A DNA stretch of 64,000 bases from Lachnospiraceae bacterium (GTDB lineage Bacteria; Bacillota; Clostridia; Lachnospirales; Lachnospiraceae), in assembly GCA_015057555.1 (NCBI GenBank), contig SVEC01000003.1:124001-188000 (forward strand), given 5' to 3'. The position numbers were made by a program, and so were the translations under genes. Shown here in pieces: positions 27,779 to 47,937 of the stretch (positions within the stretch are counted from its first letter, which is position 1; each line of letters starts with the position of its first letter). Under the pieces are notes generated by a model, which worked only from the letters and a program-made list of their open reading frames with translations, was not told where the DNA came from and ran no database searches.

Positions 27779-27792
27779 TAAGGACTGATTAT

Positions 27793-28005: not shown

Positions 28006-28044
28006 AACATTAACAATATATTAAAATTATAGGAGGATATAACA

Positions 28045-29355: not shown

Positions 29356-29369
29356 GGGGGATGAAGTAA

Positions 29370-29672
29370 GTGGCAGATAATTATAAAGTAGAAGAAGAAA
29401 TTATCCTTGTTATAGAAGATTGTAATAAAGCAATTGAAGGAATGTCTGATTTAAGTGAGATAAATGATGTTATTTCTGGATTGTTAAAATCTGATTTATG
29501 GAAGGGAAAATCAAAAGAAAAATGTGAATGTATTCAGACAGCAATTGTTACATATATGATGAGTATTGAAACTTTAATGAATGATTTAAAATGTGCTTTG
29601 TCTGTTCTACTGGCAAATGCATATGATTTTGAAAGCAATTCTGAAAAAGTAAAGTTAATTAACACCATATAA
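29370..29672 (+). CDS. WXG100-like protein
   Basis: The 100-residue helical hairpin has the turn motif W-K-G in SDLWKGKSKEKC near residue 42, as in ESAT-6-type proteins. The GTG start at 29370 has AAGGGGG 9 bases upstream. It is probably secreted with, or escorts, the cargo encoded 1 kb downstream. Confidence 0.7.
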   Translation: MADNYKVEEEIILVIEDCNKAIEGMSDLSEINDVISGLLKSDLWKGKSKEKCECIQTAIVTYMMSIETLMNDLKCALSVLLANAYDFESNSEKVKLINTI

Positions 29673-29687
29673 AAGGAGAAATATTGC

Positions 29688-30299
29688 ATGACTGATAAGG
29701 AAATATATGTTATTAATAGAGCGTTAGATGGAAAAGATATATATATGTTACCTTCATTACAAGAACTTAGGTTGTCAGAATTGCTTATTGAAGGAGTTAA
29801 AGAAAGGTTGATAATAAAAGGGATTTTGACCAATTTCGATGAATTAACAATCCAAGGTGTATCAAAAATAAAAATGTTGAAAACATATAAAGAGGCTGAA
29901 AAGTATGTTACAATTAACAATATTACAATAGGATTAGCACAGAACAAGCAAGGTGTAATGTTGATGTATAATCCATTGTATAAAAAATATAAACTGGAGT
30001 ATGTAAATATTGACAATATTGTTGATGATATTGTTGATACATATAAGTTCTTTCTGGAAGGTGCCAGTGAATATGAGGAAGCAGAGAAAGAGATATCCTC
30101 AATTGAAATGGAAAAAGAATTTGATTTAGGGAATAGTTTATATCTAAAAATCGAAGATAATAAAGGTCAAAAAACTATAGAATGCAAGTTATTTTGTCAT
30201 AACAATTGCATATATGTGTACGATTATACAACAAATGTATTAAAAAAATGTATGACTAAAAGTATAATTAAAATGATAAAGGAGAAAGTTTGCTTATGA
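29688..30299 (+). CDS. T7SS cargo-operon protein, possibly EspG/DUF5081-like chaperone
   Basis: The 203-residue soluble protein has no signal peptide. It begins with a helix-rich half (LPSLQELRLSELLIEGV) followed by a beta-rich half with YKLEYVNIDNIV. This general make-up and its place among WXG-like genes recall EspG/DUF5081-type secretion chaperones. This is a weak resemblance; I cannot name the family firmly. Confidence 0.45.
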   Translation: MTDKEIYVINRALDGKDIYMLPSLQELRLSELLIEGVKERLIIKGILTNFDELTIQGVSKIKMLKTYKEAEKYVTINNITIGLAQNKQGVMLMYNPLYKKYKLEYVNIDNIVDDIVDTYKFFLEGASEYEEAEKEISSIEMEKEFDLGNSLYLKIEDNKGQKTIECKLFCHNNCIYVYDYTTNVLKKCMTKSIIKMIKEKVCL

Positions 30300-30610
30300 T
30301 GGAGACTCTGGAATATGACGATATTCATATGGATGAAATAGTAAAACGATATAAAGAAGCTGTGACCCAAATAGATGATATCATAGCGCATATGAATAAT
30401 ATGTTAAGTTCTATATTGACATTATATCAGGGACAAGCGGAAAATGAAATTGTACCAGAGACGTTTTCGAAAATTATTGAGCACCTTGAGCTACTTAAAT
30501 TGTGTTATTTTAATACAGGGTTATTTGTAACAGATACAAAGTATACATTGGCATATTTGGATAGTGTTCAAACGGCAGTGCTCAATTATTTTTCTCCGAA
30601 GGAGGATTAA
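30290..30610 (+). CDS. Small helical T7SS-associated protein
   Basis: The helical product of about 105 residues lacks W-x-G but has two long amphipathic helices. AAAGGAG at 30278-30283 is 6 bases before TTG 30290 and 12 before ATG 30296, so TTG is preferred, with slight overlap to the previous gene. It sits directly before the metallopeptidase gene and is a likely targeting partner (compare LXG-associated helical proteins). Confidence 0.6.
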   Translation: MLMMETLEYDDIHMDEIVKRYKEAVTQIDDIIAHMNNMLSSILTLYQGQAENEIVPETFSKIIEHLELLKLCYFNTGLFVTDTKYTLAYLDSVQTAVLNYFSPKED

Positions 30611-30611
30611 T

Positions 30612-31604
30612 ATGTCTGAAATAATTAAATCTAATAATATAGAATGGTTGGAGATTTCACAAAAAATTTATACTGGAAATTATCCTATAGTGATAACGAA
30701 ATTGGAAGAAGCATTAGAGGCTTGTGTTGCTGCTAGTTTTCTGGTGATATTGGATAAAACGGTCAGTAACTTAACTCTCCCAGTAACAGCTGATGATATT
30801 GAAGAGTTGAACGAAAAAAGAAGAAAATTAGTATCTTTTGTTAATGGAATTCATTACGAAATATCTCAGTTGGTAGATAATCCGTTTGCTCTTATGATGG
30901 GGAATATAGCTGAAGCGTCATACGATTTGGACCCCTCAGATATAGAGGTAAAAGTTGGTGGCTTTGGTCCATTTGATATCAAGGCGTCATTAACGGGTTT
31001 GGTGTATTCGAGTATAGAAGATGAGAAACTTAAAACTGACTTTGAAGCGAAAGTAGATGCCTTGGATGATGATGTAGTACCATATAAATTAGACCAAGCT
31101 ATTTTAGAGGCAGAATATTGGAAAAATCAATATGAAAAGTCAATAGAGTGTGGAGAAATTGCCAATGCAATTTTTACGCCAAAAGTTCGTGAACAATGGG
31201 CAGACATAACTCCAGAAGAAAGATTGGCATATATAACTCAATATAAGGATGAAATAAGTGTTGTATTGGGCGAGGGCACTCATATCACACCAGATGATAT
31301 AGGTTTTTGTAATGGCTTTGGAGTCTCATATAACGTAAGTGGAATAGGAATTAATGAGGCTTTCATATATGAACCGACAGGTAATTATAGTCTTGATAAA
31401 TTGATAGACACTACAACTCATGAGATGCGACATCAGTATCAGGATGCAGCAGTAGAAAATCCTGATAAGTATGGTGTGCCAGATGGCGTGTATGAGGAAT
31501 GGACACAAAAGTATATTGATTCGGGTAAATATACAAAATATTATCAACAACCGATAGAGGCAGATGCAAAAGCTTATGCCGCATTGTCCCGATTAAATTA
31601 TTAG
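30612..31604 (+). CDS. Putative T7SS effector with HExxH metallopeptidase domain
   Basis: The 330-residue protein has a helical N-terminus (about 1-90) lacking a signal peptide, a middle region, and a C-terminal domain with DTTTHEMRHQYQ, in which HEMRH near residue 270 is a zincin HExxH, and a downstream Glu in QPIEADAKAYAAL near residue 317 as third ligand. ATG 30612 has GGAGG 6 bases upstream. The gene order (WXG-like proteins before, membrane-anchored proteins after) is that of an effector-immunity unit. Its target is unknown. Confidence 0.72.
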   Translation: MSEIIKSNNIEWLEISQKIYTGNYPIVITKLEEALEACVAASFLVILDKTVSNLTLPVTADDIEELNEKRRKLVSFVNGIHYEISQLVDNPFALMMGNIAEASYDLDPSDIEVKVGGFGPFDIKASLTGLVYSSIEDEKLKTDFEAKVDALDDDVVPYKLDQAILEAEYWKNQYEKSIECGEIANAIFTPKVREQWADITPEERLAYITQYKDEISVVLGEGTHITPDDIGFCNGFGVSYNVSGIGINEAFIYEPTGNYSLDKLIDTTTHEMRHQYQDAAVENPDKYGVPDGVYEEWTQKYIDSGKYTKYYQQPIEADAKAYAALSRLNY

Positions 31605-31615
31605 GAGTGTTAGGT

Positions 31616-32152
31616 ATGAAAAAAGAGGTCTTGATGATTGTGCTGGTAGTTTTTGTCCTTTTGGTATGTGGATTAAGTAATTTTAAAAAGAGGGATGCAG
31701 GAACTATGAAGAACATGTATATTGATGAAGCAAATATAAAAGAAGTAAATGATAACAGCTATATGGGAATAGAGCTAAATCAGGATAGTGGTTTATCAGA
31801 GGAAGAATCAAAAAGATATAGTATGGATTATCCATATACTATGTATTCAGAAGAGGGAGGTGCAGAATATTATTGCTTTAGATATCCAAATAATAATTTT
31901 CCTCTTACGGTAACATATATTAGTATTAAAGATCCGAAATACAATGTATTTGGGATTAAAGTAGGAGATGATATAGTTTCTAGTGAACAGATTTTATTTG
32001 TTAATGGGTATAGGAAACAAGAATTTCCTGATGAAAATAGTAAGTGTTATTCCAAAGGTGATGTGATAATATTTCTTGATTACAATGAAACAACTATAAA
32101 AAGAATTGAAGTTTCTCTAGATATAGAAACAGAAGAAGACGTTAAGTATTAG
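31616..32152 (+). CDS. Membrane-anchored candidate immunity protein
   Basis: The 178-residue protein has an N-terminal hydrophobic helix (3-20) with a Cys (VCGLS) that could be a weak lipobox, then an exported domain ending in a strand-rich unit (ISIKDPKYNVFGIKVGDDIV, KGDVIIFLDYNETTIKRIEV). The next gene is a paralogue. ATG 31616 has AGGAG 8 bases upstream. Position after a metallopeptidase effector suggests immunity. Confidence 0.6.
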   Translation: MKKEVLMIVLVVFVLLVCGLSNFKKRDAGTMKNMYIDEANIKEVNDNSYMGIELNQDSGLSEEESKRYSMDYPYTMYSEEGGAEYYCFRYPNNNFPLTVTYISIKDPKYNVFGIKVGDDIVSSEQILFVNGYRKQEFPDENSKCYSKGDVIIFLDYNETTIKRIEVSLDIETEEDVKY

Positions 32153-32161
32153 AATACCTTC

Positions 32162-32196
32162 AAAAGGACACATACCAAAAGTGTCCTTTTGGTATG
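32162..32196 (+). terminator. Hairpin region with two competing stems
   Basis: AAAAGGACAC (32162-32171) can pair with GTGTCCTTTT (32181-32190). CATACCAAAAG (32171-32181) can instead pair with CTTTTGGTATG (32186-32196). The two stems exclude each other. Confidence 0.7.
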
Positions 32197-32320
32197 TACC
32201 AAATAATGGTATATTAGAGCAAATATAATAAGAATATGACAAAGGTTATTATATCCAAATGTTCTAGTGCTCCCCTAACAGTAATATGATATTAACTCAA
32301 CCATACCACTAGGAGGAATT

Positions 32321-32893
32321 ATGAAAAAAATATTAATAGTAACATTATTGATCTTTGCCCTATCTGGCTGTACCTTAAATAACACATCCACAGAAGGAGG
32401 GATAACTACAATGAGCGAAGTATCAACTGAAGAAACCACCGCTACAGAGGATGAAAATTACATCGACGAAGCAAACATAAAAGAAGTAAATGATAACAGT
32501 TATATGGGGATAGAACTACATCAAGATAGTGGACTATCTGAAGAAAAATCAAAAAATTATGGAATGGATTGCCCATATGTTATGTATCCAGAAGAGGGTG
32601 ATACAAAATATTATTGCTTTAGATATCCAAACAATGAATTTCCACTTACGGTAACTCAAATTAGCATTAAAGATTCAAAGTACAATGTATTTGGGATTAG
32701 CATAGGAGATGATATAACTTCCGCTGAAGGTAAATTGCGAGATAAAGGGTACGAAAAAGAGGACAATCCACCTGAAGGCACATATGTGTATTTCAAGGGA
32801 GATGTGCTGGTATTTCTCCACTGCAAAGAAAACACTATAGAAAGAATTGTAGTTTCTCTAAAAATCGAGAAAGAAGAAGGCGTAATGTACTAG
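32321..32893 (+). CDS. Lipoprotein candidate immunity protein (paralogue)
   Basis: The 190-residue protein has a clear lipoprotein signal with FALSGCT and the Cys at residue 17, a Thr/Glu-rich spacer, and then about 130 residues closely similar to the preceding protein (shared NSYMGIEL, QDSGLSEE, YYCFRYPNN, KYNVFGI). It probably arose by tandem duplication. It would sit on the outer face of the membrane, able to meet an incoming effector. It has its own AGGAGG and terminator. Confidence 0.62.
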   Translation: MKKILIVTLLIFALSGCTLNNTSTEGGITTMSEVSTEETTATEDENYIDEANIKEVNDNSYMGIELHQDSGLSEEKSKNYGMDCPYVMYPEEGDTKYYCFRYPNNEFPLTVTQISIKDSKYNVFGISIGDDITSAEGKLRDKGYEKEDNPPEGTYVYFKGDVLVFLHCKENTIERIVVSLKIEKEEGVMY

Positions 32894-32934: not shown

Positions 32935-33032
32935 TATGTACAAAAAAAGAAAAAAATGGTATCATAGAATAGATGTAATGTCGGAAAATATAAATTTAAA
33001 TATATATAATTCTATTTGGGAGGAACTTTTTG

Positions 33033-34733
33033 ATGAAAAAGCTATTAGGAACGTTGATTTTACTGGGAGCATTAACTTTTGGATTTAATATACAGGTACA
33101 GGCTGCGGAGCCTGCTAAAACAACAGAGGCAGTGGAAACAGCTACAGGAGATGCGACAGAAGAAGCTACTACACCAGCTACTCAGGTATATGACGAAAAA
33201 CTGGCAGTGGTGCCATATCAGCTGGTATATGTAAATGATACAGGCTATGAAGAGGTTCTTAAGGCAGGCTATGGGTTTTTCGTAGGAGACAAAACCCAGA
33301 GCGTATATATGATTACCTGTTATAACACAGTAATATTAACTGACCCAGAAAAGCAGGCTATAGCAAAAAGATTTGCCATAGAAGCAAAAGAAATTAACAC
33401 CAAGATTAAGATATATCTCAAGGGTGATATAACTGTAGAGGCAACTCTTGAAACAGGTAGTGCAGAGATGGATTTTGCCATAGTAAAGCCAGCTACAGAT
33501 TTAAGTGGATGCACAACCCTTAGACTTTGCGAGGATGCAAACATCAATGCAAATGGAACGCCTGTATATTCATTTAAGCTTCCTATCCTTGCCACATACA
33601 GTGATGCAACAACAGGAGACATCCAGAGAATAGATGGAGAGATTCAGGATTGGGCAGACATTAATGAGGTGCATTATTACAAGTACAATATGTCTGACGT
33701 TCCGGTACCAGGTATGCCTGTTATCAACGAAAGAGGAGAGGTAATAGCTGTAAATACTAACATTTCAACTACTAACAATGGCTATTACGCATCTATTCAG
33801 ATAAATGAAATAATTGAGGTGATGAATGTATTAGGTTTTGTGTATAATCCACCTATTGTAATCGATGTGGAGACTGCAGACCTTATAATTGAGGAGTACG
33901 AGACCTTAGAGGCAAGTAAGTACATAAAGGAAACCTGGGTATTAGCAGAGGAGGCATATCAGAAGCTTATCGAGGTTAGAAAAAAGGTAGAGGATGGAGA
34001 CTTAGATTACTATACTCAGGGAGAGTTAGATGAAGCAGTAGGAGAATTAAGAATGGCTATTGATGGTCTGCAGGTTCCAAAGACTGACGCCAAGAAGGTA
34101 ACTATTATAGCTATAATCATCGGCTCAGTACTGTTTGTTGTAATATTAACTCTTGTTATAGTATTGCTTGTAAACAAGAGCAAGTACAAGAAGAAGCTTC
34201 AGGAGGAAAAGGACAATAAGCAGACAGCTATGGAAATCCTTAAGATGAGCGGTCGAATTACTCCTGGTTCTATTCAGAATAATATGAACGGTCTACCAAC
34301 AAATAGAAGCTTAGACGGAGTAGGCTATGGTGAAGGAGAAGGTGGATTCTCTTCAGAGACAACTGTTTTATCTCAGGCAGGATATGCTATGGATGATGCG
34401 GCTATGATGTCAGGACATCTGTATCAGGAGCAGTTTATAAGCTATCCAACATTAACTAGAAATAAGACAGGTGAATCAGTAACCATTAACAAGAACAGCT
34501 TTATCATTGGAAAGTCACCGGATATGGTTGATTATTGTATAAGATACAACAGCAACATAAGTAGAAAACACGTATGTATCATTAGAATGGAGGATGGCTA
34601 CTATATCCAGGATTTAGATACTACAAATGGTACTTATGTAAATGATATTAGAGTAAGTGGTAACAGAAGCGTTAAGCTTGAGGACGGCTGTATAATTAAG
34701 ATGGCTGAGGAAGAATTTGTATTTTCATATTAA
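33033..34733 (+). CDS. Membrane protein: inactive trypsin-like domain fused to FHA
   Basis: The 566-residue protein has a signal peptide (1-25), a Thr-rich spacer, an exported trypsin-like domain (about 60-270), a helical stalk, a membrane helix near 355-377 and a cytoplasmic FHA domain (about 470-566) with IIGKSP, SRKHV and TTNGTYVND. In the protease domain the His position reads ITCYNTV, the Asp is kept in MDFAIV and the Ser segment reads VPGMPVINERGEVIAVN, so it is probably a non-catalytic binding domain. It leads the T7SS core genes. GGGAGG lies 9 bases before ATG 33033. Confidence 0.78.
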   Translation: MKKLLGTLILLGALTFGFNIQVQAAEPAKTTEAVETATGDATEEATTPATQVYDEKLAVVPYQLVYVNDTGYEEVLKAGYGFFVGDKTQSVYMITCYNTVILTDPEKQAIAKRFAIEAKEINTKIKIYLKGDITVEATLETGSAEMDFAIVKPATDLSGCTTLRLCEDANINANGTPVYSFKLPILATYSDATTGDIQRIDGEIQDWADINEVHYYKYNMSDVPVPGMPVINERGEVIAVNTNISTTNNGYYASIQINEIIEVMNVLGFVYNPPIVIDVETADLIIEEYETLEASKYIKETWVLAEEAYQKLIEVRKKVEDGDLDYYTQGELDEAVGELRMAIDGLQVPKTDAKKVTIIAIIIGSVLFVVILTLVIVLLVNKSKYKKKLQEEKDNKQTAMEILKMSGRITPGSIQNNMNGLPTNRSLDGVGYGEGEGGFSSETTVLSQAGYAMDDAAMMSGHLYQEQFISYPTLTRNKTGESVTINKNSFIIGKSPDMVDYCIRYNSNISRKHVCIIRMEDGYYIQDLDTTNGTYVNDIRVSGNRSVKLEDGCIIKMAEEEFVFSY

Positions 34734-34745
34734 TTAGGAGAGATT

Positions 34746-35654
34746 ATGGTAGTAAATACATATAATGACCATGTTGCATACATTTTTGAGGAAAATGAAA
34801 ACATTTCGCCCTTGGGAAATCGAGTAATGAGCAAGATGAACAAGGATTACATTATGAAATACAGTACAGTAATTTATAATGGTAGACCTAAGCTTTTGTA
34901 TGGAGCAGAGGATTTAAAGGTACTTAACAATATTATAGCTACACTGCCGGAGGCAGAGATTATAGGTTTGCTTAAACAGTTTTTAGATGTAGTGTGTACT
35001 GTAAATGATAATGACTTTATAAATTTGTATGCTATAGATGTAAATTTTAATAGATTGTATTACAATGCTAAGCTACAGCTTCTAAAGTGCATTATAATTC
35101 CTGTAAATGAAAACTATGATTTTCATGAGAATGTAACCTGGCAGGAAAAATATAGGAATACACTGGTAATGTTTTGTTCTCAGATATTCCGTTCCCAGCC
35201 TGAGCGATACTCAGAGCTGTATTATATGATTATGGATATGTCCAAGTCTGATGGAGAGATAGCTTATCAGCTTCTTAATTATGATTTTGGATTGAAACGA
35301 GCAGGAGAAACCACTACACAGATATTTGAAGAAGCTATGGTGGATGATGGAAGAATAATGTTCTTAGAGCATTACAGTGAATTAGGAAACCTTTTGTTTA
35401 GAATATCTCAGAAGGAATATATAATTGGAAAATCTGTGAACAATGCTCACGGAGTTATCAATATATCTACATCTGTTAGTAGAAAGCATTGTGTTATAAG
35501 AAAAGAGGATGGTGGATTTACCATTGAAGATTTAGGAAGCTCTAATGGAACCAGCGTAAATGGTTTTGGATTGGAGCCAGGGGTTAGATATATGCTTAAT
35601 GAAGGTGATGTTGTGCAGCTTGCAGATGTAGTGTTTGGCGTAAGAGTGGAGTAG
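34746..35654 (+). CDS. DUF6382-like/FHA protein of the T7SS core
   Basis: The 302-residue cytoplasmic protein has an N-terminal domain of about 180 residues with LLKQFLDVVCTVNDNDF and LLKCIIIPVNENYD, a pattern like DUF6382 and distantly like the EssB/YukC pseudokinase domain (inference). The C-terminal FHA domain (about 220-302) shows IIGKSVNNAHG, SRKHCVI and GSSNGTSVNG. FHA domains bind phospho-Thr, so the Ser/Thr kinase upstream is a possible partner. Confidence 0.72.
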   Translation: MVVNTYNDHVAYIFEENENISPLGNRVMSKMNKDYIMKYSTVIYNGRPKLLYGAEDLKVLNNIIATLPEAEIIGLLKQFLDVVCTVNDNDFINLYAIDVNFNRLYYNAKLQLLKCIIIPVNENYDFHENVTWQEKYRNTLVMFCSQIFRSQPERYSELYYMIMDMSKSDGEIAYQLLNYDFGLKRAGETTTQIFEEAMVDDGRIMFLEHYSELGNLLFRISQKEYIIGKSVNNAHGVINISTSVSRKHCVIRKEDGGFTIEDLGSSNGTSVNGFGLEPGVRYMLNEGDVVQLADVVFGVRVE

Positions 35655-35667
35655 AGTGGGATAAGGT

Positions 35668-36702
35668 ATGAGCAAAAAGAAGATAGTATTTGTGTGCTTC
35701 GATGAAGATTACATAACAGCATTAGAATATAAGATGGCGGAGATAGTCGGTCATAATGCAGAGATAGAATTTATAACTGACTGCAAATTTTATACGCAAT
35801 ATATGTCTGTTCCAAAAAGAATAGATATTCTTGTTGTGCCTGAAAATATGGGACAGATGATTACCAATAAGAGCAACATTGGTAAGATATATTATCTTAC
35901 TGAAGAAAATGTTGAGAATAATAAAGAGTCAGAGGATCTAGTATACAAGTATGGTAGTGTTAGATATCTGGTTGAGAAAATAGACGAGAAGATATTTGAG
36001 AATACAGGCAAGGACGGTAAAAAGGGAACAAAGGTTGTCAGTGTGTTCTCTGTTGGTGGAGGCTGCGGAAAAACTACAGCTGCATTGTCTGTGGCTCATA
36101 ATCTGCACAAGAAGGGTAACAGAGTACTATATGTAAGTACCCAGCCTATGCAGGATTATCAATTTGTAATTCCAAACTGTGAGAAACTGTCTAGTGAATT
36201 CTCATATCAGTGCACCATCAATATTAAGAATGCATTGAAGCTTCTCCTTAGAGAGATAAAGACTGAGGGCTTTGATTATATACCAGCCTTCAATAAGATA
36301 CCAAGTACATACCAGGTGACCTTTGAAACCTATGTGGATATGATAGAATTTATTAATCAGAAGAATATGTATGATTACATTATAGTTGAGTTGTCAAATA
36401 GTATTTCTACTAAGAAAAACTCGTTTATGCATAACTGCTATAGAACACTTATCGTTACCACTCAGGAGGAAACTGCAGTAAAGAAGCTGGAGAATTTCCT
36501 GGAAAGTATGGCAGGATTTACAGACAAGGTTACTATATTGTGCAATAGAGTAAAGACAACTAGAACCAACTATTTAGAGGTTAGTCCTTTGGTTTCAACC
36601 TATGAAATTAGTGAATATGTAAGTGAGGGAGAGACAGGGATTAGCTTCCAGACTATTAAGGATTATCAGTGCTTTAATAGAACTACAGTGTGTTTGGAAT
36701 AA
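35668..36702 (+). CDS. CpaE/MinD-like P-loop ATPase
   Basis: The 344-residue protein has a degenerate receiver-like domain (about 1-115), then a ParA/MinD-type ATPase with a deviant Walker A, VGGGCGKTTAAL, near residue 128, and YDYIIVELSNS in the Walker B place. CpaE-like proteins position secretion or pilus machines; here it may place the T7SS or couple it to a signal. It lies between the FHA and YukD genes and is followed by a terminator. Confidence 0.78.
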   Translation: MSKKKIVFVCFDEDYITALEYKMAEIVGHNAEIEFITDCKFYTQYMSVPKRIDILVVPENMGQMITNKSNIGKIYYLTEENVENNKESEDLVYKYGSVRYLVEKIDEKIFENTGKDGKKGTKVVSVFSVGGGCGKTTAALSVAHNLHKKGNRVLYVSTQPMQDYQFVIPNCEKLSSEFSYQCTINIKNALKLLLREIKTEGFDYIPAFNKIPSTYQVTFETYVDMIEFINQKNMYDYIIVELSNSISTKKNSFMHNCYRTLIVTTQEETAVKKLENFLESMAGFTDKVTILCNRVKTTRTNYLEVSPLVSTYEISEYVSEGETGISFQTIKDYQCFNRTTVCLE

Positions 36703-36708
36703 AAATAC

Positions 36709-36755
36709 CTGCTATTACTGTGCCCTTTGGTTGGGGTGGGGTAATAGCAGTTTTT
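36709..36755 (+). terminator. Terminator within the T7SS core, G-rich loop
   Basis: CTGCTATTAC (36709-36718) pairs perfectly with GTAATAGCAG (36741-36750), followed by T5. The 22-base loop is rich in G. It separates the FHA/ATPase genes from yukD-essC. Confidence 0.88.
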
Positions 36756-36794
36756 ATAGGGGTATAACAACATTTACAGGAAAGGGGTTATAGT

Positions 36795-37046
36795 ATGAAA
36801 GATACAGTGATTATGGTATTTGAGTATACTAAGAAAAATACCAGCTTCGATATAGAGGTTCCATTGTCAATAACGGCAAATGAACTTATATATGGACTAA
36901 ATAGAGGACTGGGACTAGGCATAGACATAAATAAGGTTTCAGAATGTTACCTGTGTACAGAGGAACCACGAGCATTGCTTAGAGGCGATATTACATTGGA
37001 CAAATTTGGACTTAGAGATGGTACCAAGATTAGTTATCAGAGATAG
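36795..37046 (+). CDS. esaB: YukD/EsaB-like ubiquitin-fold protein
   Basis: The 83-residue protein has the beta-grasp pattern of YukD: VIMVFEYTKKNTSFDIEVP, a helix with ITANELIYGLNRGLGL, and a final LRDGTKISYQ. YukD/EsaB proteins are T7SS parts in Firmicutes. The next gene is essC, 17 bases away, which supports the call. Confidence 0.82.
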   Translation: MKDTVIMVFEYTKKNTSFDIEVPLSITANELIYGLNRGLGLGIDINKVSECYLCTEEPRALLRGDITLDKFGLRDGTKISYQR

Positions 37047-37063
37047 GTCATGTGGAGGGGTAT

Positions 37064-40000
37064 ATGAAATTTAAACTTGTATTATATGGAAATAATATGT
37101 ATAAGGAAATCGTTCTAGATGACACCTTTACAGGAGGACTTACTATAGGTACCGAGAAGAGCTGTCAGGTGGGATTTAGACGAGAGAGATTCTTATCAGA
37201 CTTTGTAGTTAGAATAGATAGACAGGAAGATGGAAACTTTGTTATAAGCTGTAGCGAAAGCATCTACCTTAAGAAGGAAGCGGGTGTAAAGGAGTATATT
37301 AGATACCTAAGCATAGGTGATAATATAGCTCTTTGTTATGAGTATACAGATACAGAATTCTTCTATATTGACTTCTTTGTTCAGTTTGAGAGTGTGGGAA
37401 CTGACTTTGATATGAAGTTGGATTGTAGAGGCTGTACTGAACTAACAATAGGTGGTAATACCAGTGATACAATAAGAGTAGACTCAGTGAATCTTTTAAA
37501 TGACAGTGTAACTGTCAGAAAGGTTTTTGAAGGCTATGAGGTGGATTCCAGCAATACCAGATATGGCGTTGAGATAAATGGATTCATATCCAGAGAGGCG
37601 GTAAGCTTTATAGCAAATGGCGAATTCTTCTCAGTGGGAGGATATAACTTCTGTATAAAGGATGATTTTATATACACCACCAAGAAGGCTACTATAATTA
37701 CTAACCTAAAGCAGGAGATAATAGCGCACCAGAAGAATCATTTTGAATATCCGGAATTCAAGAAAAATGTTCGCCAGAGATATAAGATGCCAGATGGAGA
37801 GATAGAGATACTTGACCCTAAGGCTAAGGAGGAGAAGGAAGAACAAAGCTTTATGATGACCCTTATGCCTATGCTGGTAAATATGCTTCTCATGGTAGGA
37901 CTTAGAGGAATTATGGGTGGCGGAGGAATGTTCGTCATTTATTTTGCTGCCACAATGTCTATGACAACTATCATGACCATTGTATCTCATTTTGCCGATA
38001 AGAAGAAGCAGAGAGAAAAGGAAGAAAAGCGCGAAGAAAAATATTTGGAATACCTTTCTAAGAGAGAGGATGAAATAATAAAGAGTAGGGAGAAGGAACG
38101 TGTAATTGCTAATCAGATGAGCCCTACTTTGGATGAGTATGTCAAATTTGTCTCTGATTTTGATAACAGACTTTTCGAAAAGGAAAAGGAACATGACGAT
38201 TACCTGGCTGTTAGAATGGGTGACGGAATAGTTGAGTCCACCTGTCCTGTAACCTACAAGCAGGAGGATTATGTGGAGACTGAGGATACCTTGAAGGAAT
38301 ATCCAAAGGCACTTCACGACAAGTACCAGTATATTAGCGACATGCCAATTATGCTTGACCTTAATGCCACAAATGCTGTGGGCTTTATAGGAAGTAGAAC
38401 CAAGCTTTATCAGATGGCTAAGAATCTCATAGTTGAATTTGCAGCATCACATTATTATAAGGATGTTAAACTCTTCCTGGTAATGGATGAGTGTGATGTG
38501 GAAATGTTTGAGTGGGCTAGATGGATGCAAATCTTCTACAATGACAACACAAACACTAGAAACTTTATGTATGATGAGGATAGTGCAAAGTATGCATTGG
38601 AATTCCTGTACTCAGAGCTTTCTAGAAGAGAGAGTGCTGGAAAGGCTGTAAAGGAGCTTCAGGACTATGTTGTATTGGTATATAGGTCTGAACTTGTAAA
38701 TAACCATCCTGTATCAAAGTACATTTCTAAGGCAAAGGAATTGGGCTTTAGATTTGTATTCTTTGAGGAGTATGAGGAGCTTGTAAATAGCGCCTGTGAA
38801 AAGAGAATATTCCTGAATACAGAGTCAAATAAGGGCTATGTTCAGGATGTTGAGGACGGTGTGAATATCCAAGAGTTTAAGTATGGTCACATTTCTAAGA
38901 AGCAGGCTGAGGAGGCTGCAAAGAAGCTGTCCTGCGTATACGTAGATGAGATTAATCTGGAGAATAGCTTAACAAAGAACATTACATTGTTTGAGCTGCT
39001 TAATATTATGACTCCATATGATTTGGACCTTAAGAGCAGATGGGCAAATTCGAAGATATATAAGAGTATGGCTGCTCCACTGGGTGTAAAGAGTGGAGAC
39101 GAGGTTGTGTGTCTTGATTTGCATGAAAAATATCATGGTCCACACGGTTTGGTAGCAGGTACTACAGGTTCAGGTAAATCTGAGATTATGCAGTCATATA
39201 TTCTTTCTATGGCAACTCTTTTCCACCCACATGAGGTTGGATTTATAATCATCGACTTTAAGGGTGGTGGTATGGTTAACCAGTTTAGAAACCTTCCACA
39301 TCTTAACGGTGCCATAACAAATATTGACGGTAATGAAATCGAGCGTTCACTCCTTTCTATCAAGGCTGAGCTTATAAAGAGACAGGAGAAGTTCGCGGAG
39401 CATAACGTAAACCATATAGACGACTACATTAAGCTCTATAAGGATGGACAGGCTAAGCTGCCACTTCCACACCTTATACTTATAGTAGACGAGTTTGCGG
39501 AGCTTAAGAGTGAACAGCCGGAATTCATGAAGGAGCTTATAAGTGCTGCCCGTATCGGACGAAGCTTAGGAGTGCATCTTATCCTTGCAACACAGAAGCC
39601 ATCTGGTGTAGTAAGTGATCAGATTTGGAGTAACTCTAAGTTCAAGCTCTGTCTTAAGGTACAGAATAAGAACGACAGTAATGAGGTTCTTAAATCCCCA
39701 CTTGCGGCAGAGATTAGAGAGCCAGGTCGTGCATACCTTCAGGTAGGTAATAACGAGATATTCCAGCTCTTCCAGTCAGCCTACAGTGGAGCATCTGCTA
39801 AGAATGACGACATTGGAGCACAGAAGAAATTTATGATTACAAAGGTTGAGCTCTCAGGTAAGAAGTCAATTATCTATGAGCAAAAGCCGGATGATAGCAA
39901 GGGTGGAGAAACTCAGCTAGAGGCTATCGTAAATTATGTAAAGGAATACTGTGACAACGCTAAAATTCCAAAGGTTCCAGACATCTGTCTTCCATCTCTT

Positions 40001-41593
40001 AGCACAGAGATACCATTTACATTAGAGGGAGATACCTACAATGGAACAGATATTGTTATTCCTGTAGGTATAGTGGATGACCCATCAAGACAGAGACAGT
40101 ACGTTGAAACTATTAATATAAGCCAGAACAATATATACATATTAGGTTCATCACAGTCAGGTAAGACAAACCTTATCCAGACTATGATAAGAGGACTTGC
40201 TACAAAGTACTCACCTAAGGAGGTTAATATATTTATCTTAGACTTTGCCTCTATGATTCTTAAGAACTTTAACGACTTAAATCATGTGGGCGGAGTAGTA
40301 ACCTCAAGTGAGGATGAAAAGCTTAAGACCTTCCTTAGAATGCTGAATCAGGAGATTCAAAAGCGTAAGAACATCCTGGCAAAGCAGGGACTTAGCTCCT
40401 ATAGCTCCTATAGAGAATCAGGTCAGACTGACCTTCCACAGATACTTGTAATCTTGGATAACTGGGTATCCTTCCGAAGCTATTTCCCAGATTACGAGGA
40501 GATGATAATAAGTATCACCAGAGAGTGCGTATCACTAGGTATATCCTTCGTGGTAACAGCTCAGCAGACTGCAGGAGCAGGCTTTAAGCTTATGTCAAAC
40601 TTCTCTAAGAGAATCGCCCTTTACTGTAATGATTCTGGAAGCTATTCATTCCTATTCGAGTCATGCCGAAAGAAGCTTGCAGACATACCTGGTAGAGGTA
40701 TCGTGGAGAAGGAAAAGGTATACTACGAATGTCAGCACTATCTGGCATTTGCAGCTGAAAAGGAATTCGAGAAGATTAAGCTTATGAAGGAATTCATAGC
40801 AGAGATAGCTGCAAAATACCCAGACGAAGGTGTTCGTGGAATCCCTGAGATACCAGAACGTGTGTCAGAGCAATTCATCAGAAAGCAGTATGGCAAGGAC
40901 TGCGTGAAGCCTTACGAGGTTCTTATGGGATTAGATTTCGATACGATATCCTTAAGAAAGTTCAATATGCTTAAGACTCCATTGTTTGGATTCCTAGGCA
41001 GGAAGGAAAGCAACAAGAACGATTATGTGAAATATATGCTTAATACCCTTATGTCTAACCAGGAGCAGGCACCTGTCAGCTTATTTATGATAGACGATAT
41101 AGAAGGCTCACTGGGTATGTTCAAGGACAAGGCAGCTATGTATTCAAATACTCAAGAGGATATGATGAGTGCATTTGCTCAGATACATACCACATTGACA
41201 GACAGATATGCTAGATATCAGAAGAGACAGATAAATATGGCTGAAGAACCATTATTACTTTTGGTTATCAACTCCGCTGACTTGCTGAAGGCAGCCAGTG
41301 CAGATAAGACCAAAGCAGAGATGTACAAGGATATTATAGGCAAATATAAGGACTTAAAGGTAAGTATCCTATGTACTGATCTGGAGAATGCAGCTATTAT
41401 CTTCACAGCAGGTGAGCTGCTTAAGACTCTCAAGGATTCAAAGCTTGTTATGGCCTTTGAGGATATCAAGACACTTAAGTTTATAGAAATATCTGCTATG
41501 GTGGCTAGAGAATACAAGAAGCCGATAGAGTATAGTGATGCTTATGTATTTAACGGAGATAAGATAGAAAAGATACGTAGTATACAGGGGTAA
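37064..41593 (+). CDS. essC: EssC-type FtsK/SpoIIIE ATPase of the T7SS
   Basis: The motor of the secretion system, 1509 residues. The N-terminus (about 1-190) has tandem FHA-like domains, followed by a membrane region near 265-315 (MMTLMPMLVNMLLMVGLRG). ATPase domain 1 has Walker A AGTTGSGKSE near 700 and Walker B LILIVDEFAEL. Domain 2 has LGSSQSGKTN near 1025 and LVILDNWVSF, with Asn in place of the catalytic Glu. Domain 3 (about 1305 on) has a degenerate GRKESNKND, as in other EssC proteins. ATG 37064 follows GGAGG at 37054-37058. Confidence 0.93.
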   Translation: MKFKLVLYGNNMYKEIVLDDTFTGGLTIGTEKSCQVGFRRERFLSDFVVRIDRQEDGNFVISCSESIYLKKEAGVKEYIRYLSIGDNIALCYEYTDTEFFYIDFFVQFESVGTDFDMKLDCRGCTELTIGGNTSDTIRVDSVNLLNDSVTVRKVFEGYEVDSSNTRYGVEINGFISREAVSFIANGEFFSVGGYNFCIKDDFIYTTKKATIITNLKQEIIAHQKNHFEYPEFKKNVRQRYKMPDGEIEILDPKAKEEKEEQSFMMTLMPMLVNMLLMVGLRGIMGGGGMFVIYFAATMSMTTIMTIVSHFADKKKQREKEEKREEKYLEYLSKREDEIIKSREKERVIANQMSPTLDEYVKFVSDFDNRLFEKEKEHDDYLAVRMGDGIVESTCPVTYKQEDYVETEDTLKEYPKALHDKYQYISDMPIMLDLNATNAVGFIGSRTKLYQMAKNLIVEFAASHYYKDVKLFLVMDECDVEMFEWARWMQIFYNDNTNTRNFMYDEDSAKYALEFLYSELSRRESAGKAVKELQDYVVLVYRSELVNNHPVSKYISKAKELGFRFVFFEEYEELVNSACEKRIFLNTESNKGYVQDVEDGVNIQEFKYGHISKKQAEEAAKKLSCVYVDEINLENSLTKNITLFELLNIMTPYDLDLKSRWANSKIYKSMAAPLGVKSGDEVVCLDLHEKYHGPHGLVAGTTGSGKSEIMQSYILSMATLFHPHEVGFIIIDFKGGGMVNQFRNLPHLNGAITNIDGNEIERSLLSIKAELIKRQEKFAEHNVNHIDDYIKLYKDGQAKLPLPHLILIVDEFAELKSEQPEFMKELISAARIGRSLGVHLILATQKPSGVVSDQIWSNSKFKLCLKVQNKNDSNEVLKSPLAAEIREPGRAYLQVGNNEIFQLFQSAYSGASAKNDDIGAQKKFMITKVELSGKKSIIYEQKPDDSKGGETQLEAIVNYVKEYCDNAKIPKVPDICLPSLSTEIPFTLEGDTYNGTDIVIPVGIVDDPSRQRQYVETINISQNNIYILGSSQSGKTNLIQTMIRGLATKYSPKEVNIFILDFASMILKNFNDLNHVGGVVTSSEDEKLKTFLRMLNQEIQKRKNILAKQGLSSYSSYRESGQTDLPQILVILDNWVSFRSYFPDYEEMIISITRECVSLGISFVVTAQQTAGAGFKLMSNFSKRIALYCNDSGSYSFLFESCRKKLADIPGRGIVEKEKVYYECQHYLAFAAEKEFEKIKLMKEFIAEIAAKYPDEGVRGIPEIPERVSEQFIRKQYGKDCVKPYEVLMGLDFDTISLRKFNMLKTPLFGFLGRKESNKNDYVKYMLNTLMSNQEQAPVSLFMIDDIEGSLGMFKDKAAMYSNTQEDMMSAFAQIHTTLTDRYARYQKRQINMAEEPLLLLVINSADLLKAASADKTKAEMYKDIIGKYKDLKVSILCTDLENAAIIFTAGELLKTLKDSKLVMAFEDIKTLKFIEISAMVAREYKKPIEYSDAYVFNGDKIEKIRSIQG

Positions 41594-41750: not shown

Positions 41751-42343
41751 ATGGCATTAGAAGTAAAATACGAAGAGATACGTGCCAACGTCATTGCAAA
41801 GCTTGAGGAGTTGTCAGAAGAGATGATTACTAATCTTGGAACACTTGATGGTATCGTGGGAGATATTCCTGGATGCGCAGAAGGTGATGTAATCACAGCT
41901 TACATTAATGAGTATGAGACTATCGTAGCAGATGTTTACTCTAAGGTTAATAGTGGACTCTCACAGTACTGTGGTCAGTTAGAGTCAGTATGTGCTGAAT
42001 TCGAAAGAGTTGATACAGAGATGCAGTCTCAGATAGGAGGAAATTAAAATGGCATTAAAGATTAGTTATACCGAGCTTACAGCATTAACAGGTCAGATGG
42101 AGAAGGCTGCTGAGAATATTATGACAGTATATGATAGTATGTTAACAGCAGTAAATTCATTAGTTGAGAATGGATATATGGAGGCTGAGTCAGCTAATTC
42201 ATATGTTGATAACTTTACTTCACTCATTGGACCATCAATAACTGAGTTAAACTCACTTGTAGTTTCATTCTACACTCAGTTAAACACTATTTGTGATAAC
42301 TTCGCAGATGTTGATGCTCAGATTGCAGCAAAGATTAGAGCTT
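41735..42343 (+). repeat. Duplicated WXG-pair segment, copy 1
   Basis: This 609-base segment recurs almost unchanged at 47306-47914, exactly 5571 bases downstream. The two copies differ at few bases, and the second protein of the pair is identical. Confidence 0.95.
41751..42047 (+). CDS. W-less WXG100-like T7SS protein A1
   Basis: The 98-residue helical hairpin has the turn at IPGCAEGD and a C-terminal helix with CAEFERVDTEM, typical of ESAT-6-type proteins although the W-x-G Trp is missing. It is followed after one base by the second member of the pair, so the two probably form a heterodimer exported by EssC. Strong AGGAGG. A copy with four conservative changes lies at 47322. Confidence 0.78.
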   Translation: MALEVKYEEIRANVIAKLEELSEEMITNLGTLDGIVGDIPGCAEGDVITAYINEYETIVADVYSKVNSGLSQYCGQLESVCAEFERVDTEMQSQIGGN

Positions 42344-42345
42344 AA
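42049..42345 (+). CDS. W-less WXG100-like T7SS protein B1
   Basis: The 98-residue helical hairpin has its turn at ENGYMEAESANSYVDN and ends with CDNFADVDAQIAAKIRA. It starts one base after its partner gene. The copy at 47620 encodes an identical protein, which suggests gene conversion or a recent duplication under strong constraint. Confidence 0.78.
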   Translation: MALKISYTELTALTGQMEKAAENIMTVYDSMLTAVNSLVENGYMEAESANSYVDNFTSLIGPSITELNSLVVSFYTQLNTICDNFADVDAQIAAKIRA

Positions 42346-42404: not shown

Positions 42405-42502
42405 AAATAAGATAAGATTGATAAGATTTTGAAAATGAGGACGAAAATAATCACACAGAGGTGTGTGGATAAAATAAATAATACAAATTGAGGAGGAACA
42501 AG

Positions 42503-42925
42503 ATGGATAAATGGCAGATACAGCAGAGGATAAATTCTTTGAGGTGGAGCAGAGAGACTTATGAAGATGAGATTTCAAAGCTAGAAGCAAAGAAAAATAG
42601 GACAAAATTGGAATATACAAAAAAACATAGACAAGCAATGCAAGTGTCTAAATTTTATGCAAGTAAAAGAACAAATATCACATCTATAAAGGATAGTATA
42701 AATGGTAAGGCAACAGCTTTGGCTATTGCCAAATGTGAAGAGACATATTGTGTAGGTAATGAAGATACGATTACACAATATATTCAATCTGCCAGAGCTT
42801 GCCTAAAAAGTAATATGGATAGAATTGATGAAGAAATCGTAGAAATAAAAGGGCAGATATCTTCGATTAATTGGGAGATAACAAGACTAAATAAATTATT
42901 AAGCGAAACAGAAAGTGAGGAATAG
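42503..42925 (+). CDS. Coiled-coil protein of cargo module 1 (DUF5082/YwqH-like)
   Basis: The 140-residue product is coiled coil at both ends (residues 3-55 and 95-138) with a middle KATALAIAKCEETYCVGNE. Homologues lie at 47996 and 51610. Position at the head of an LXG-type effector operon recalls B. subtilis ywqH in ywqHIJ. ATG 42503 follows GAGGAGG. Confidence 0.65.
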   Translation: MDKWQIQQRINSLRWSRETYEDEISKLEAKKNRTKLEYTKKHRQAMQVSKFYASKRTNITSIKDSINGKATALAIAKCEETYCVGNEDTITQYIQSARACLKSNMDRIDEEIVEIKGQISSINWEITRLNKLLSETESEE

Positions 42926-42929
42926 TTTT

Positions 42930-43208
42930 ATGGAAGAATTAATTATAGACGAAGCAGAAATATTAGCTTATCAGCAGATGATAAACCAGATCAATGTGGC
43001 TATTGAGCAAAGATTAAGTGCAATTATTACACAAGTTAGTAGTGCCTGTGGTGCTTTTTCGGAAGGATATTTTCATGATAATCTTGATGCATATGTTGAA
43101 AAGCTTAAGGTAATGCAAGGACAGCTGGCATACTTCACTTTTGAAATGCAAGGAGATGCAAGTGAGTTTATGACCAAAATAGATGAAATAGACACTTTGT
43201 CAGTGTAA
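42930..43208 (+). CDS. Small helical protein, cargo module 1
   Basis: The 92-residue helical protein has the central FSEGYFHDNLDAYVEKL and MQGQLAYFTFEMQ segments, shared with the module 2 protein at 48423. It is a likely LXG-associated targeting partner. The earlier in-frame start at 42915 would overlap the previous gene and lacks a site; ATG 42930 is preferred. Confidence 0.62.
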   Translation: MEELIIDEAEILAYQQMINQINVAIEQRLSAIITQVSSACGAFSEGYFHDNLDAYVEKLKVMQGQLAYFTFEMQGDASEFMTKIDEIDTLSV

Positions 43209-43227
43209 TTATACAGGGAGGAATATT

Positions 43228-43524
43228 ATGGCGAATGGAGTTAAAATAGAGGATTATCCTGCGATTGATCGTGCTATAGGAATGTTAAGAAATATTTCTG
43301 AAGATGCAGGTGAACAAAGCGTTTCTAGCTTGATAGCTGAATTGGGTTCTGTGTTTGTTAATACAAATAGCGAAACAGCGAATAAGCTTTTAACAGTTCA
43401 GGAAGTGTACACTAGTATAAATGATATGTACACAAATATGGCTAGTAATGCAATGACTTTGTTGCAGAAAGCCAAGATTTTGTATCAAGAAACTGATAGT
43501 CAGAGCGCTGGTGATATGAACTAG
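43228..43524 (+). CDS. Small helical protein, cargo module 1 (DUF5344/YwqI-like)
   Basis: The 98-residue helical hairpin has its turn around FVNTNSETANKLL and no Trp. The homologue at 48736 shares FSSTNSKAAEEL. By order it corresponds to ywqI, the partner of an LXG toxin. GGGAGG precedes the ATG. Confidence 0.62.
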   Translation: MANGVKIEDYPAIDRAIGMLRNISEDAGEQSVSSLIAELGSVFVNTNSETANKLLTVQEVYTSINDMYTNMASNAMTLLQKAKILYQETDSQSAGDMN

Positions 43525-43558
43525 ACATTAATTTTGATAATATGTAAGGAGAATATCT

Positions 43559-45175
43559 ATGATAAGAGACTTTTCAAATACTACAAGACAAAGAATATTA
43601 AGTTTTTTGAGTGATAATTCATTATTATTCGCAGAAGACATAAATTATGCGTCTTTATTTGGTTGTGCTGAAGCCACTGAAGATGATTATGCGCCTTTTG
43701 CTGCGGATATAGAAACATATATTACTTGTGCAAATAATGGGACAGTGTCTGCTATTACTTATATGGATGGTATAAAGGAAGAGGTAAACAAGGTTTTTGA
43801 TGAAGCTCAGCAATGTGATAAAGATTATATTGCAACGATAGAAGATGATATGACATTAACATTAGAAAACTACATGAGTGACTTAAAAACCTTGGTTGAT
43901 GCTATAGCAGTAGGAGGAGTGGGAGACACACAAAGAGAAATGTTGGAAAACTTGGGTAAGTATGATGCATATAATATTTTTGATGATTCAAGTGATTTTA
44001 AAGATTCTTTAAGTAGTGTAGATAACCTATTGTATGAAGAATTTATCTCTCAATTTGTAACGTCATCTGGAATGAATGATGAGGCTATATCTTCTTTCTT
44101 TGCTGAGAATAATGATGATTTGCACTTGTGGGAGTTGCAGGCATTTGAAAGCCTATTGCTTTCGTGTGTTGTTATTGATCCTGAAACAGGAGAATTGGAT
44201 GAAGAGGCATTTTTGATGGAACTGGAAAAATTTATAGAGGCGTGTTATTATTATGAACCATATACAGGAGCTGGTCATGAAGATTATTATGTATATCATT
44301 TGCATGATGAATATGCGCAAATTTTTGCATATTATGATGCACATGTTGGAAATATGTTGGATGCGTATCCAGGTGCTTTAAATTCTGACTCTCCAAATTG
44401 GCAAATATATTCTGCTTTATCTGATATGGATGCTTTGTTGGAAGGAGTATATCTTTATGGTCAAGAAATTCAAATTAGTTCATTTCAAGAAGATGAGGTT
44501 AATGGAGGATGGATGGATGAACCAGTTTCTACTGATGTATTTGATATAAGCTTAACTAGTGATAATTCATGGATGTATATAAATTATCCAGGGTCTGACC
44601 ATGGACAAATAAATGTTTCTCACTTTGGACCGTTAGATCAATCAGTAATAGCTGCACAATATTATAATCAAGAAGCTTTATTGGCTGATCCAGATGACGC
44701 ATATATTAACGCACTTCAAGAAGGTGTAGGCGATTATATAGTATCACAGCTTACTGGACCGTTAGAAGACTTGATACCTGAACCAGTGCAAGAGGCTTTG
44801 GATGTTGCTGAAATATTTACTGATGCGGAAGAAGCTAGGGAAGAACAAGAAGCAACTAATCAAGAAATACATGAAAATATGAATTCAAATGCACATCTGT
44901 TGCTGATAGGGACTGCTAATGGGGAGAATGCCGAGGGAGGTATACCAGCTCATGGAAATGTAATATCGTATGATGGTGAAGATACCCTTACAAACCATCA
45001 GTTTGACGAAGATGCGTTAGCAACTCATGTTAATGAGTATAATACCGATAATGGCACATCGATTGATCCAAATACCATAATTGCAGCTGTTACAGATCCT
45101 TCATGTGTTGATTTTTCAGATCCTATAATTGAACAATTCCTAGGCATTGCACAAACACAAAACCAAGATAATTAG
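43559..45175 (+). CDS. LXG-like T7SS effector, module 1
   Basis: The 538-residue protein has no signal peptide. The first 130 residues are helical (targeting region); a middle domain (about 170-260) shares WELQAFESLLLSC and a following acidic-aromatic stretch with the module 2 effector. The last 100 residues (from about 440) differ and should hold the toxic activity; no known catalytic motif is seen. Two membrane-anchored paralogues follow. Codon use favours CAA and AAA more than the core genes. Confidence 0.6.
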   Translation: MIRDFSNTTRQRILSFLSDNSLLFAEDINYASLFGCAEATEDDYAPFAADIETYITCANNGTVSAITYMDGIKEEVNKVFDEAQQCDKDYIATIEDDMTLTLENYMSDLKTLVDAIAVGGVGDTQREMLENLGKYDAYNIFDDSSDFKDSLSSVDNLLYEEFISQFVTSSGMNDEAISSFFAENNDDLHLWELQAFESLLLSCVVIDPETGELDEEAFLMELEKFIEACYYYEPYTGAGHEDYYVYHLHDEYAQIFAYYDAHVGNMLDAYPGALNSDSPNWQIYSALSDMDALLEGVYLYGQEIQISSFQEDEVNGGWMDEPVSTDVFDISLTSDNSWMYINYPGSDHGQINVSHFGPLDQSVIAAQYYNQEALLADPDDAYINALQEGVGDYIVSQLTGPLEDLIPEPVQEALDVAEIFTDAEEAREEQEATNQEIHENMNSNAHLLLIGTANGENAEGGIPAHGNVISYDGEDTLTNHQFDEDALATHVNEYNTDNGTSIDPNTIIAAVTDPSCVDFSDPIIEQFLGIAQTQNQDN

Positions 45176-45189
45176 GAAGGAATATAAGA

Positions 45190-46164
45190 GTGAATAAAAA
45201 GAAAATCATTTATATTATTATACTATGTGTACTGTTGGCAGTATTTACAATTTCAAGAATCTTTGCCTACAGAGAAAAGGTAACAGAAGAGACAAAAACT
45301 TTAAATTATAGATTTCAGACTTGCTTATTTTTGCAAGTTGTACATAGTGACGTTAGCTACAACAAGGTGGAACAAAAATATGTTCCGTCAGAGCAGGGAC
45401 AGCCACTTCTTCGCATTATGATTAGTTATTATAATTGTTATAATGAGGATAAAGTGGATTATGATATGCTTATTAGGGAATATCATAATTTCTGTGATGG
45501 AAAAAAAACATACGAGAATCTGGAAAGATATGCAGATTTTATTTATGACAAGTGTTATATTCCACTAGAAGAGATGTCTCCTGATAATTTGGATTGTAAA
45601 TATTCAGCTGGGCATTGTGGAACATTATTGAGAAATGCATATGGTATCGATAGCAAATTTAGTGAAGAATATAGTAACTTAACTCAGGAACAGGTTGATG
45701 CTATATGTGTCCCTTTATATCAGCAGAAAGAAAATTTGTTTAATAGAGTGATTTGTTCACAGCTACTGAGTGCTAGCAGCCTGCCATATTATATGTATCA
45801 AAGTGGATTTGACGATTCACAATTAGAAACTAATGAAGATGGAGAAACTGTTATATGGTCAGATGATTCATCTGTATGTTGCTATCTGTCTAAAGGAGAA
45901 CTTGGTTATTTACCTGGAGAAGAACAATGGTATGTAAGCAAAATCGAATTTGTTAAACCATCTAATTATGGAATAATGGGTCTTAGAGTCGGAATGGCAA
46001 AGAAAAAAGCATTGACTAAATGTTCTTCAACTATGATAGGGGAATATTTACTGGAAAGAGAAGATTTTGAGGATAAAGTAGTCATGCGTAGAGGGCAGAT
46101 TGTGCTTACTGTTGAGTTTGAAAATGATGTATGTAGCAAATTTGTTCTAGAGGTAGAGGGATAG
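45190..46164 (+). CDS. Membrane-anchored candidate immunity protein, module 1a
   Basis: The 324-residue protein begins with a membrane helix (5-26) and is otherwise outside. The first half contains YDMLIREYHNFCDGKKTYEN; the second half is strand-rich with WYVSKIEFVKPSNYGIMGLR. The next gene is a paralogue, and a shorter relative lies at 50843. GTG start after AAGGAATATAAGA. Immunity is inferred from position. Confidence 0.58.
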   Translation: MNKKKIIYIIILCVLLAVFTISRIFAYREKVTEETKTLNYRFQTCLFLQVVHSDVSYNKVEQKYVPSEQGQPLLRIMISYYNCYNEDKVDYDMLIREYHNFCDGKKTYENLERYADFIYDKCYIPLEEMSPDNLDCKYSAGHCGTLLRNAYGIDSKFSEEYSNLTQEQVDAICVPLYQQKENLFNRVICSQLLSASSLPYYMYQSGFDDSQLETNEDGETVIWSDDSSVCCYLSKGELGYLPGEEQWYVSKIEFVKPSNYGIMGLRVGMAKKKALTKCSSTMIGEYLLEREDFEDKVVMRRGQIVLTVEFENDVCSKFVLEVEG

Positions 46165-46166
46165 GT

Positions 46167-47916: not shown

Positions 47917-47937
47917 TTTAGAGAGTATTATACATAG

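Follow-up and report, generated by a model that had tools for sequence, protein, structure and literature searches.

Among the type VII secretion system (T7SS) classes T7SSc to T7SSj defined by Garrett, Higginson and Palmer in 2024 (PMC11217815), T7SSf comprises the components A, B, C, F, J, and V. Here, we describe a related locus within a 64,000-nucleotide stretch of DNA (hereafter, the window) from contig SVEC01000003.1 of a Lachnospiraceae bacterium, whose five core genes we denote T, J, V, B, and C. The locus shares with T7SSf the YukD protein TsxB, TsxC with its N-terminal FHA domain, the DUF6382 plus FHA protein TsxJ, the TadZ-like ATPase TsxV, and an occurrence in Clostridia. It differs in that TsfJ has two transmembrane (TM) helices, whereas none was found in the window's J; in that the window locus is without the PPM phosphatase TsfF; and in that its candidates for A are weak and a membrane protein, T, is added. 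The main text of PMC11217815 does not mention T and contains none of the terms “trypsin”, “Lachnospir”, or “Butyrivibrio”. Within the literature searched, DUF6382 appeared in that paper alone, where the domain is not called kinase-like, and searches linking T7SS with trypsin-like/FHA proteins, Butyrivibrio/Lachnospiraceae, or pseudoproteases gave nothing relevant among the matches listed. A preliminary description of this DNA had presented the locus as an underdescribed system. Its class is known (T7SSf-like), as the J-V-B-C core was already published as T7SSf; new are T, the modeled kinase-fold domain of J, and the combination of kinase and PP2C genes in 8 of 27 loci with T. We give an even chance to the proposal developed below, mechanism included, namely a working DUF6382-FHA/TadZ-class, T7SSf-like system extended by the membrane component T. 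Plausibly, this T7SS variant is phosphorylation-gated.

The five genes (33030–41593) are open and co-directional, follow each other in the order T-J-V-B-C, and are separated by 12, 13, 92, and 5 nucleotides. Profile matches bear out the core recognized earlier, consisting of EssC and YukD with FHA proteins and a MinD-like ATPase. C matched Pfam FtsK_SpoIIIE (6.2e-59) and exceeded the cut-off of the NCBIfam EssC profile TIGR03928 (1153.5 versus 778.4 bits), remaining below those of the T7SSa EccC profiles (TIGR03924, 410.9 versus 509 bits; TIGR03925, 293 versus 346.6 bits). B passed the YukD cut-off (PF08817, 30.2 versus 27 bits, E 8.1e-7), V matched AAA_31 (2e-10), and J matched FHA (3.5e-16). 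T, which likely starts at the ATG at 33033, matched both FHA (1.3e-14) and Trypsin_2 (5.1e-7); it had previously been taken for an FHA-tailed membrane protein, which was correct as to the tail but overlooked the decayed trypsin-like domain. A simple hydropathy scan detected no hydrophobic segment in J or V but two in T, namely its signal peptide and a second around residue 360.

The apparent lack of EsaA, EssA, and EssB near these genes extended to whole-genome searches. Our genome set comprised the window's own genome, which is 87% complete, and 60 relatives; 37 of the 61 reached 90% completeness or more with no more than 5% contamination. No genome exceeded the cut-off for EssA (PF10661; sub-threshold matches in three genomes), for EssB (PF10140, covering the pseudokinase, TM, and outer domain; one genome sub-threshold), or for the N-terminal part of EsaA (TIGR03929; two genomes sub-threshold). 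One sub-threshold EsaA-like match, at G008:C10:44489, reached 8.9e-19 and 68.3 versus 122 bits. The window's genome matched none of the three, and a Bacillus subtilis positive control passed the cut-off in each search. EssC exceeded its cut-off in 18 of the 61 genomes, none of which carried any of the canonical three over cut-off. Since no genome passes for these proteins although EssC does in 18, their lack is not an assembly gap.

We then compared loci found by scanning contigs with an EssC alignment: the best 80 of 338 confirmed places, which together with the window make 81 loci. Many of their names refer to Lachnospiraceae, Butyrivibrio, or Pseudobutyrivibrio, others to Clostridium, Eubacterium, or Ruminococcaceae, so that on these best 80 of 338 places the system, earlier described as a Lachnospiraceae subtype, is spread in that family and in other Clostridia. 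The window's order recurs in L058, L059, L060, L062, L064, L086, L088, and L099; L058 differs little from L059, and L060 is a contig also met as G014:C22. T was found in 27 loci, 13 with J and V and 14 without them; within the stretch examined, 11 of the 27 have a PP2C gene, ten a kinase (counting that of the window), and eight both. The commonest arrangement was J-V-B without T, kinase, or PP2C (15/81); many scan stretches stop at contig ends, so that such absence counts are maxima. L071 shows the series PP2C, kinase, a 162-aa membrane protein, T, B, and C, while the gene content of L110 and L111, with a J bearing two TM segments followed by PP2C, V, B, and C, corresponds to that of the published T7SSf. 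The genes of L123 follow each other as in these two, with no TM segment found in its J.

Matches to J occurred in 43 of the 61 genomes, mostly in the FHA part only; near full-length matches (at least 289 of 302 residues) were confined to six places in five genomes, the window's own included. None of the 14 scan genomes with T and no local J had a J match better than 8.3e-15 (three had none at all), compared with 1e-33 to 1e-53 in five genomes with J. Outside the scan, relatives of T stand beside another type of EssC in G020:C15 (L054) and G008:C14 (L055), and T is therefore not bound to the window-type EssC. We also observed a protein of about 540 aa with one TM segment, here called X, upstream of J in G014:C50, G034, and G001 and partially in G036; the two copies scanned had no Pfam match. 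X (L033:6915-8528, L036:15291-16952) occupies T's place upstream of J-V-B-C and may be another exchangeable membrane part. In addition, very large Ig-like proteins resembling the published TsdI/TseI lie near J or T in other loci (L064:1502-5932, L107:1700-7696, L070:4593-8894); none was seen in the window.

The EssC tree included 105 proteins (111 matches minus six duplicates). For T7SSb, nine of 12 fetched regions yielded an EssC of at least 900 aa, and these nine, all from EssB-bearing regions, formed one clade (support 1.0). The window's EssC was placed in an 82-tip clade (support 1.0, branch 0.76) together with the T7SSf-like loci L110, L111, and L123, and in a 9-tip clade (support 1.0) with L058–L062, L086, L098, and L031, of which L061 and L098 have no T within the stretch examined. 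All scan loci with T except L091 fall in a single 37-tip clade (support 1.0; L066 is counted here, as its EssC duplicates that of L037), which also holds ten scan loci without T within the stretch examined. Because the scan used the alignment of the window's own EssC clade, the sampling of the tree is biased towards that clade.

Judging from its sequence, T is a decayed trypsin-like protein with an intact FHA domain and a GarA/OdhI-like linker motif. We aligned 29 T proteins (26 of the 28 from the scan plus those of the window, L054, and L055, one near-identical and one shortened copy being dropped). The catalytic triad positions read N/D/P in the window; across the rows, His is kept in five, Asp in 20 (the window included), and Ser in one, with Cys at the Ser position in eight. 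Only L055, beside the other EssC type, retains a complete His-Asp-Ser triad. In contrast to this decay, the phospho-binding motif SRxH is present in the FHA domain of 28 of the 29 proteins. The linker between the membrane segment and the FHA domain is poorly conserved except for the motif [EDG]TTx[LF], found in 24 rows and reading ETTVL in the window. In 1000 rounds of shuffling this motif appeared in a mean of 0.24 and a maximum of three rows, a contrast that overstates significance because related T sequences are not independent. According to PMC8546545, the same kind of motif beside the FHA domain of GarA/OdhI is a phosphorylation site.

The N-terminal domain of J is predicted with high confidence to adopt a kinase fold. 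PF19909 (DUF6382) does not match the window's J even at E 0.1, while it matches 42 of the 47 J N-terminal domains aligned (out of 55 J proteins) at E 0.01. A fold search with the whole of J gave only FHA-type proteins among the matches listed, and we therefore folded this domain alone. Foldseek placed TraF first and YukC/EssB second by E-value among 1741 matches to the resulting model. In VIA, kinases were ahead in Z, with 48 rows, titled kinases or kinase pseudodomains, above 6z0f_B, and profile comparison gave P 6.1e-4 for EssB and 1.1e-3 for kinases. The suspicion voiced in the preliminary description, that the DUF6382-like protein might be related to EssB, is supported as a possibility. 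The kinase fold, the second rank of YukC/EssB in Foldseek, and the profile match (P 6e-4) make such kinship possible, and EssB leads the kinases by Foldseek E-value, though not by VIA Z. It counts against an EssB-type J that true kinases fit the domain about as well, in structure and in profile.

The phosphorylation theme proposed earlier was sustained by the SRxH motif kept in T and J, by the linker motif of T, and by the kinase and PP2C genes of some T loci. SRxH occurs in the FHA domain of 47 of 55 J proteins, few of which carry the T-type linker motif. It was found in the first 240 residues of only five of 96 EssC proteins, and that of the window lacks it in its N-terminal ~240 aa. Since J and T have the motif and the FHA region of EssC does not, EssC probably binds its partner without phosphate, as in B. 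subtilis, and J and T may read phosphothreonine. The deviant Walker A motif of MinD/ParA ATPases is KGGxGKT, with a signature lysine; this lysine is missing from V, which has GGGCGKT at residue 130. The V profile built here also matches the T7SSf-like loci L110, L111, and L123.

In the mechanism that we propose, the pseudokinase domain of J would dock on the FHA region of EssC, a region without the phospho-binding motif, in the way that YukC docks on YukB in B. subtilis, and YukD would complete the core. T would cross the membrane and replace the membrane and outer part that EssB and EsaA provide in T7SSb, with its dead protease domain on the outer side, comparable to a mycosin cap. The ETTVL linker of T would be phosphorylated in trans by a Ser/Thr kinase and then bound by the FHA domain of J or by that of T itself. 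In this manner phosphorylation would gate assembly or activity, a PP2C phosphatase would reset it, and V would determine where in the cell the machine sits. The exported cargo would be helical (WXG/LXG-like), come from genes on either side of the core, and probably be directed against competing bacteria.

Several alternatives have to be weighed against this proposal. A canonical T7SSb whose EssA, EssB, and EsaA genes lie in an unassembled part of the genome would suit the completeness of only 87%, but we reject it as extremely improbable, as not one of the 61 genomes (37 of high quality) yields a passing match to EssA, EssB, or EsaA, although 18 do so for EssC, and the nine T7SSb EssC proteins are set apart in their own clade. 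It is also very unlikely that T works as an active protease in the membrane, equivalent to mycosin but trypsin-like and with altered catalytic residues. In favor of this, 20 of 29 rows, the window included, have Asp at its triad position, Cys takes the Ser position in eight, and L055 keeps H/D/S; against it, the window reads N/D/P, His remains in 5/29, and the full triad in 1/29. We are more hesitant, though still doubtful, about an ordinary T7SSf-type system in which J, V, B, and C suffice, with T as an accessory, either a sensor or a binder of the cell wall, and with no particular role for phosphorylation. The published T7SSf does without T, T is absent from 54 of the 81 stretches, and J-V-B without T, kinase, and PP2C is the commonest arrangement (15/81); set against this, 27 loci have retained T, including 14 that lack J and V, and its FHA and linker motifs are conserved.

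The remaining alternatives concern the origin of J. Its pseudokinase could have derived independently from a Ser/Thr kinase and share with EssB only the kinase fold, which would be compatible with the gating part of our proposal and which we consider unlikely, though clearly not negligible. The nearly equal profile matches and the 48 kinase-titled VIA rows above 6z0f_B favor such an origin; the Foldseek list, led by the secretion-system pseudokinases TraF and YukC/EssB, and the T7SS context of the gene argue against it. Conversely, EssB may have been split, its pseudokinase becoming the soluble, FHA-bearing J and its membrane and outer part being taken over by the unrelated dead-trypsin protein T, with the halves rejoining through phosphothreonine. 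We regard this as a tentative idea, less probable than the general proposal; the T relatives beside another EssC type in L054 and L055 weigh slightly against it. If true, the split would place assembly of a secretion machine under kinase control. More generally, our proposal suggests how a T7SS could manage without EssB, as DUF6382 may still contain a docking fold like that of EssB. It further suggests a common core of pseudokinase, EssC-FHA, and YukD with exchangeable membrane parts, and puts forward, for bacteria of the rumen and gut, a phospho-switch of T7SS assembly that can be tested.

The kinase gene upstream of the locus, which the preliminary description had counted as part of the system, was rejected as a component on the strength of its synteny in G012 (L228) and G004 (L229). 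In both, the kinase gene is succeeded by pflB, a 70-aa open reading frame (ORF), and a glycyl-radical ORF, and pflA follows after another 2.1 or 1.3 kb, respectively; no part of this stretch matched T, J, V, C, or the WXG-like protein. The kinase hence belongs to the pfl neighbourhood. It could nevertheless act in trans, as could PP2C proteins from other contigs. The window's genome has five PP2C_2 matches, none on contig C11; in the same genome, a PP2C match adjoins an FHA match at G000:C14:57664-58582, a possible source of phospho-control in trans. The T7SS region (28294–54840, about 26.5 kb) sits between the glycyl-radical ORF and pflA, a gap that may be an insertion hotspot, because G004 and G012 hold only 1.3–2.1 kb with small ORFs there. 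The pyruvate formate-lyase itself appears split (25736–28293) into a 680-aa body, the 70-aa ORF, and a separate 82-aa glycyl-radical ORF. All three parts were seen within a short flank in 12 of 23 same-genus pflA loci, with others cut by contig ends, while in the order-level relatives L202–L206 the glycyl-radical part directly follows the body and the 70-aa ORF was not found.

Table 1 Features of the T7SS region and the upstream kinase, in window positions
Feature	Position	Strand	Description
Kinase	23066–25492		Followed by pflB
Upstream cargo cassette	29005–32893	+	Small proteins, DUF5081, candidate substrate, two related short lipoprotein-like genes; putative function
DUF5081 protein	29688–30299	+	In upstream cassette
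T	33030–34733	+	Signal peptide; trypsin-like (pseudo)protease domain, residues 80–241; TM at ~360; ETTVL linker; FHA 492–558
J	34746–35654	+	Kinase-fold DUF6382-like domain, residues 1–183, perhaps EssB-type pseudokinase; FHA ~204–302
V	35668–36702	+	TadZ/CpaE/MinD-like ATPase; N-terminal part of ~115 aa, then P-loop
B	36795–37046	+	YukD/EsaB ubiquitin-like protein
C	37052–41593	+	EssC ATPase; two TM segments; Walker A at residues 703 and 1032
WXG100-like pair	41751–42345	+	Two 98-aa proteins, candidate TsxA and partner; weak below-cut-off WXG100 matches
Cargo cassette 1	42488–47135	+	145-aa weak YwqH-like protein, two small proteins, 538-aa candidate substrate, two similar ~320-aa proteins (candidate immunity); assigned by layout
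Cargo cassette 2	47322–51415	+	WXG-like pair, small proteins, 607-aa candidate substrate, 195-aa protein; putative
Cargo cassette 3	51577–54761	+	Two small proteins, LXG protein, 93-aa protein, DUF4176 protein
LXG protein	52633–54036	+	467 aa; PF04740, 49.7 versus 26.5 bits
DUF4176 protein	54420–54761	+	89.5 versus 25 bits

The core is flanked by candidate cargo cassettes (Table 1), whose products would be exported and act on other bacteria. LXG proteins are typical T7SS substrates, and another one lies beside EssC in the orthologous G014:C22 locus. The second protein of the WXG-like pair (42049–42345) stayed below the cut-offs of TIGR03930 (26.4 versus 44.85 bits) and PF06013 (18.9 versus 27.3 bits). 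The pair is duplicated at 47322–47916 with 98.2% nucleotide identity and sharp edges, which suggests a recent cassette duplication or gene conversion. In the upstream cassette, the 346-aa candidate substrate (30564–31604) has an HEMRH motif at residue 286, perhaps marking a zinc metallopeptidase-like domain, and the two related short proteins that follow (31607–32152 and 32321–32893) may be immunity genes.

Beyond T7SSf, the locus resembles T7SSe and T7SSj in its DUF6382-FHA J protein (soluble in T7SSe), YukD, and an FHA-bearing ATPase; unlike in these classes, the kinase TseD, the phosphatase TseF, and the Ig-like TseI were not seen in the window's island, where no kinase, PP2C, or Ig-like Pfam match was found among the annotated plus-strand ORFs of 29005–54761. 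With T7SSb (the B. subtilis Yuk and Staphylococcus aureus Ess systems) it shares EssC, YukD, LXG cargo, and a J resembling the YukC/EssB pseudokinase fold, whereas EssA, EssB (PF10140), and EsaA had no match over cut-off in the 61 genomes and the window's EssC belongs to another clade. The mycosin MycP of T7SSa is subtilisin-like, with a secreted protease-fold domain followed by one TM helix; T likewise combines a secreted protease-fold domain with one TM helix beside a T7SS, but is trypsin-like, has lost its triad, and carries a cytoplasmic FHA domain. Finally, T shares with GarA/OdhI an ETTx motif beside an FHA domain, and differs in being a membrane protein of a secretion locus with putative linker phosphorylation.

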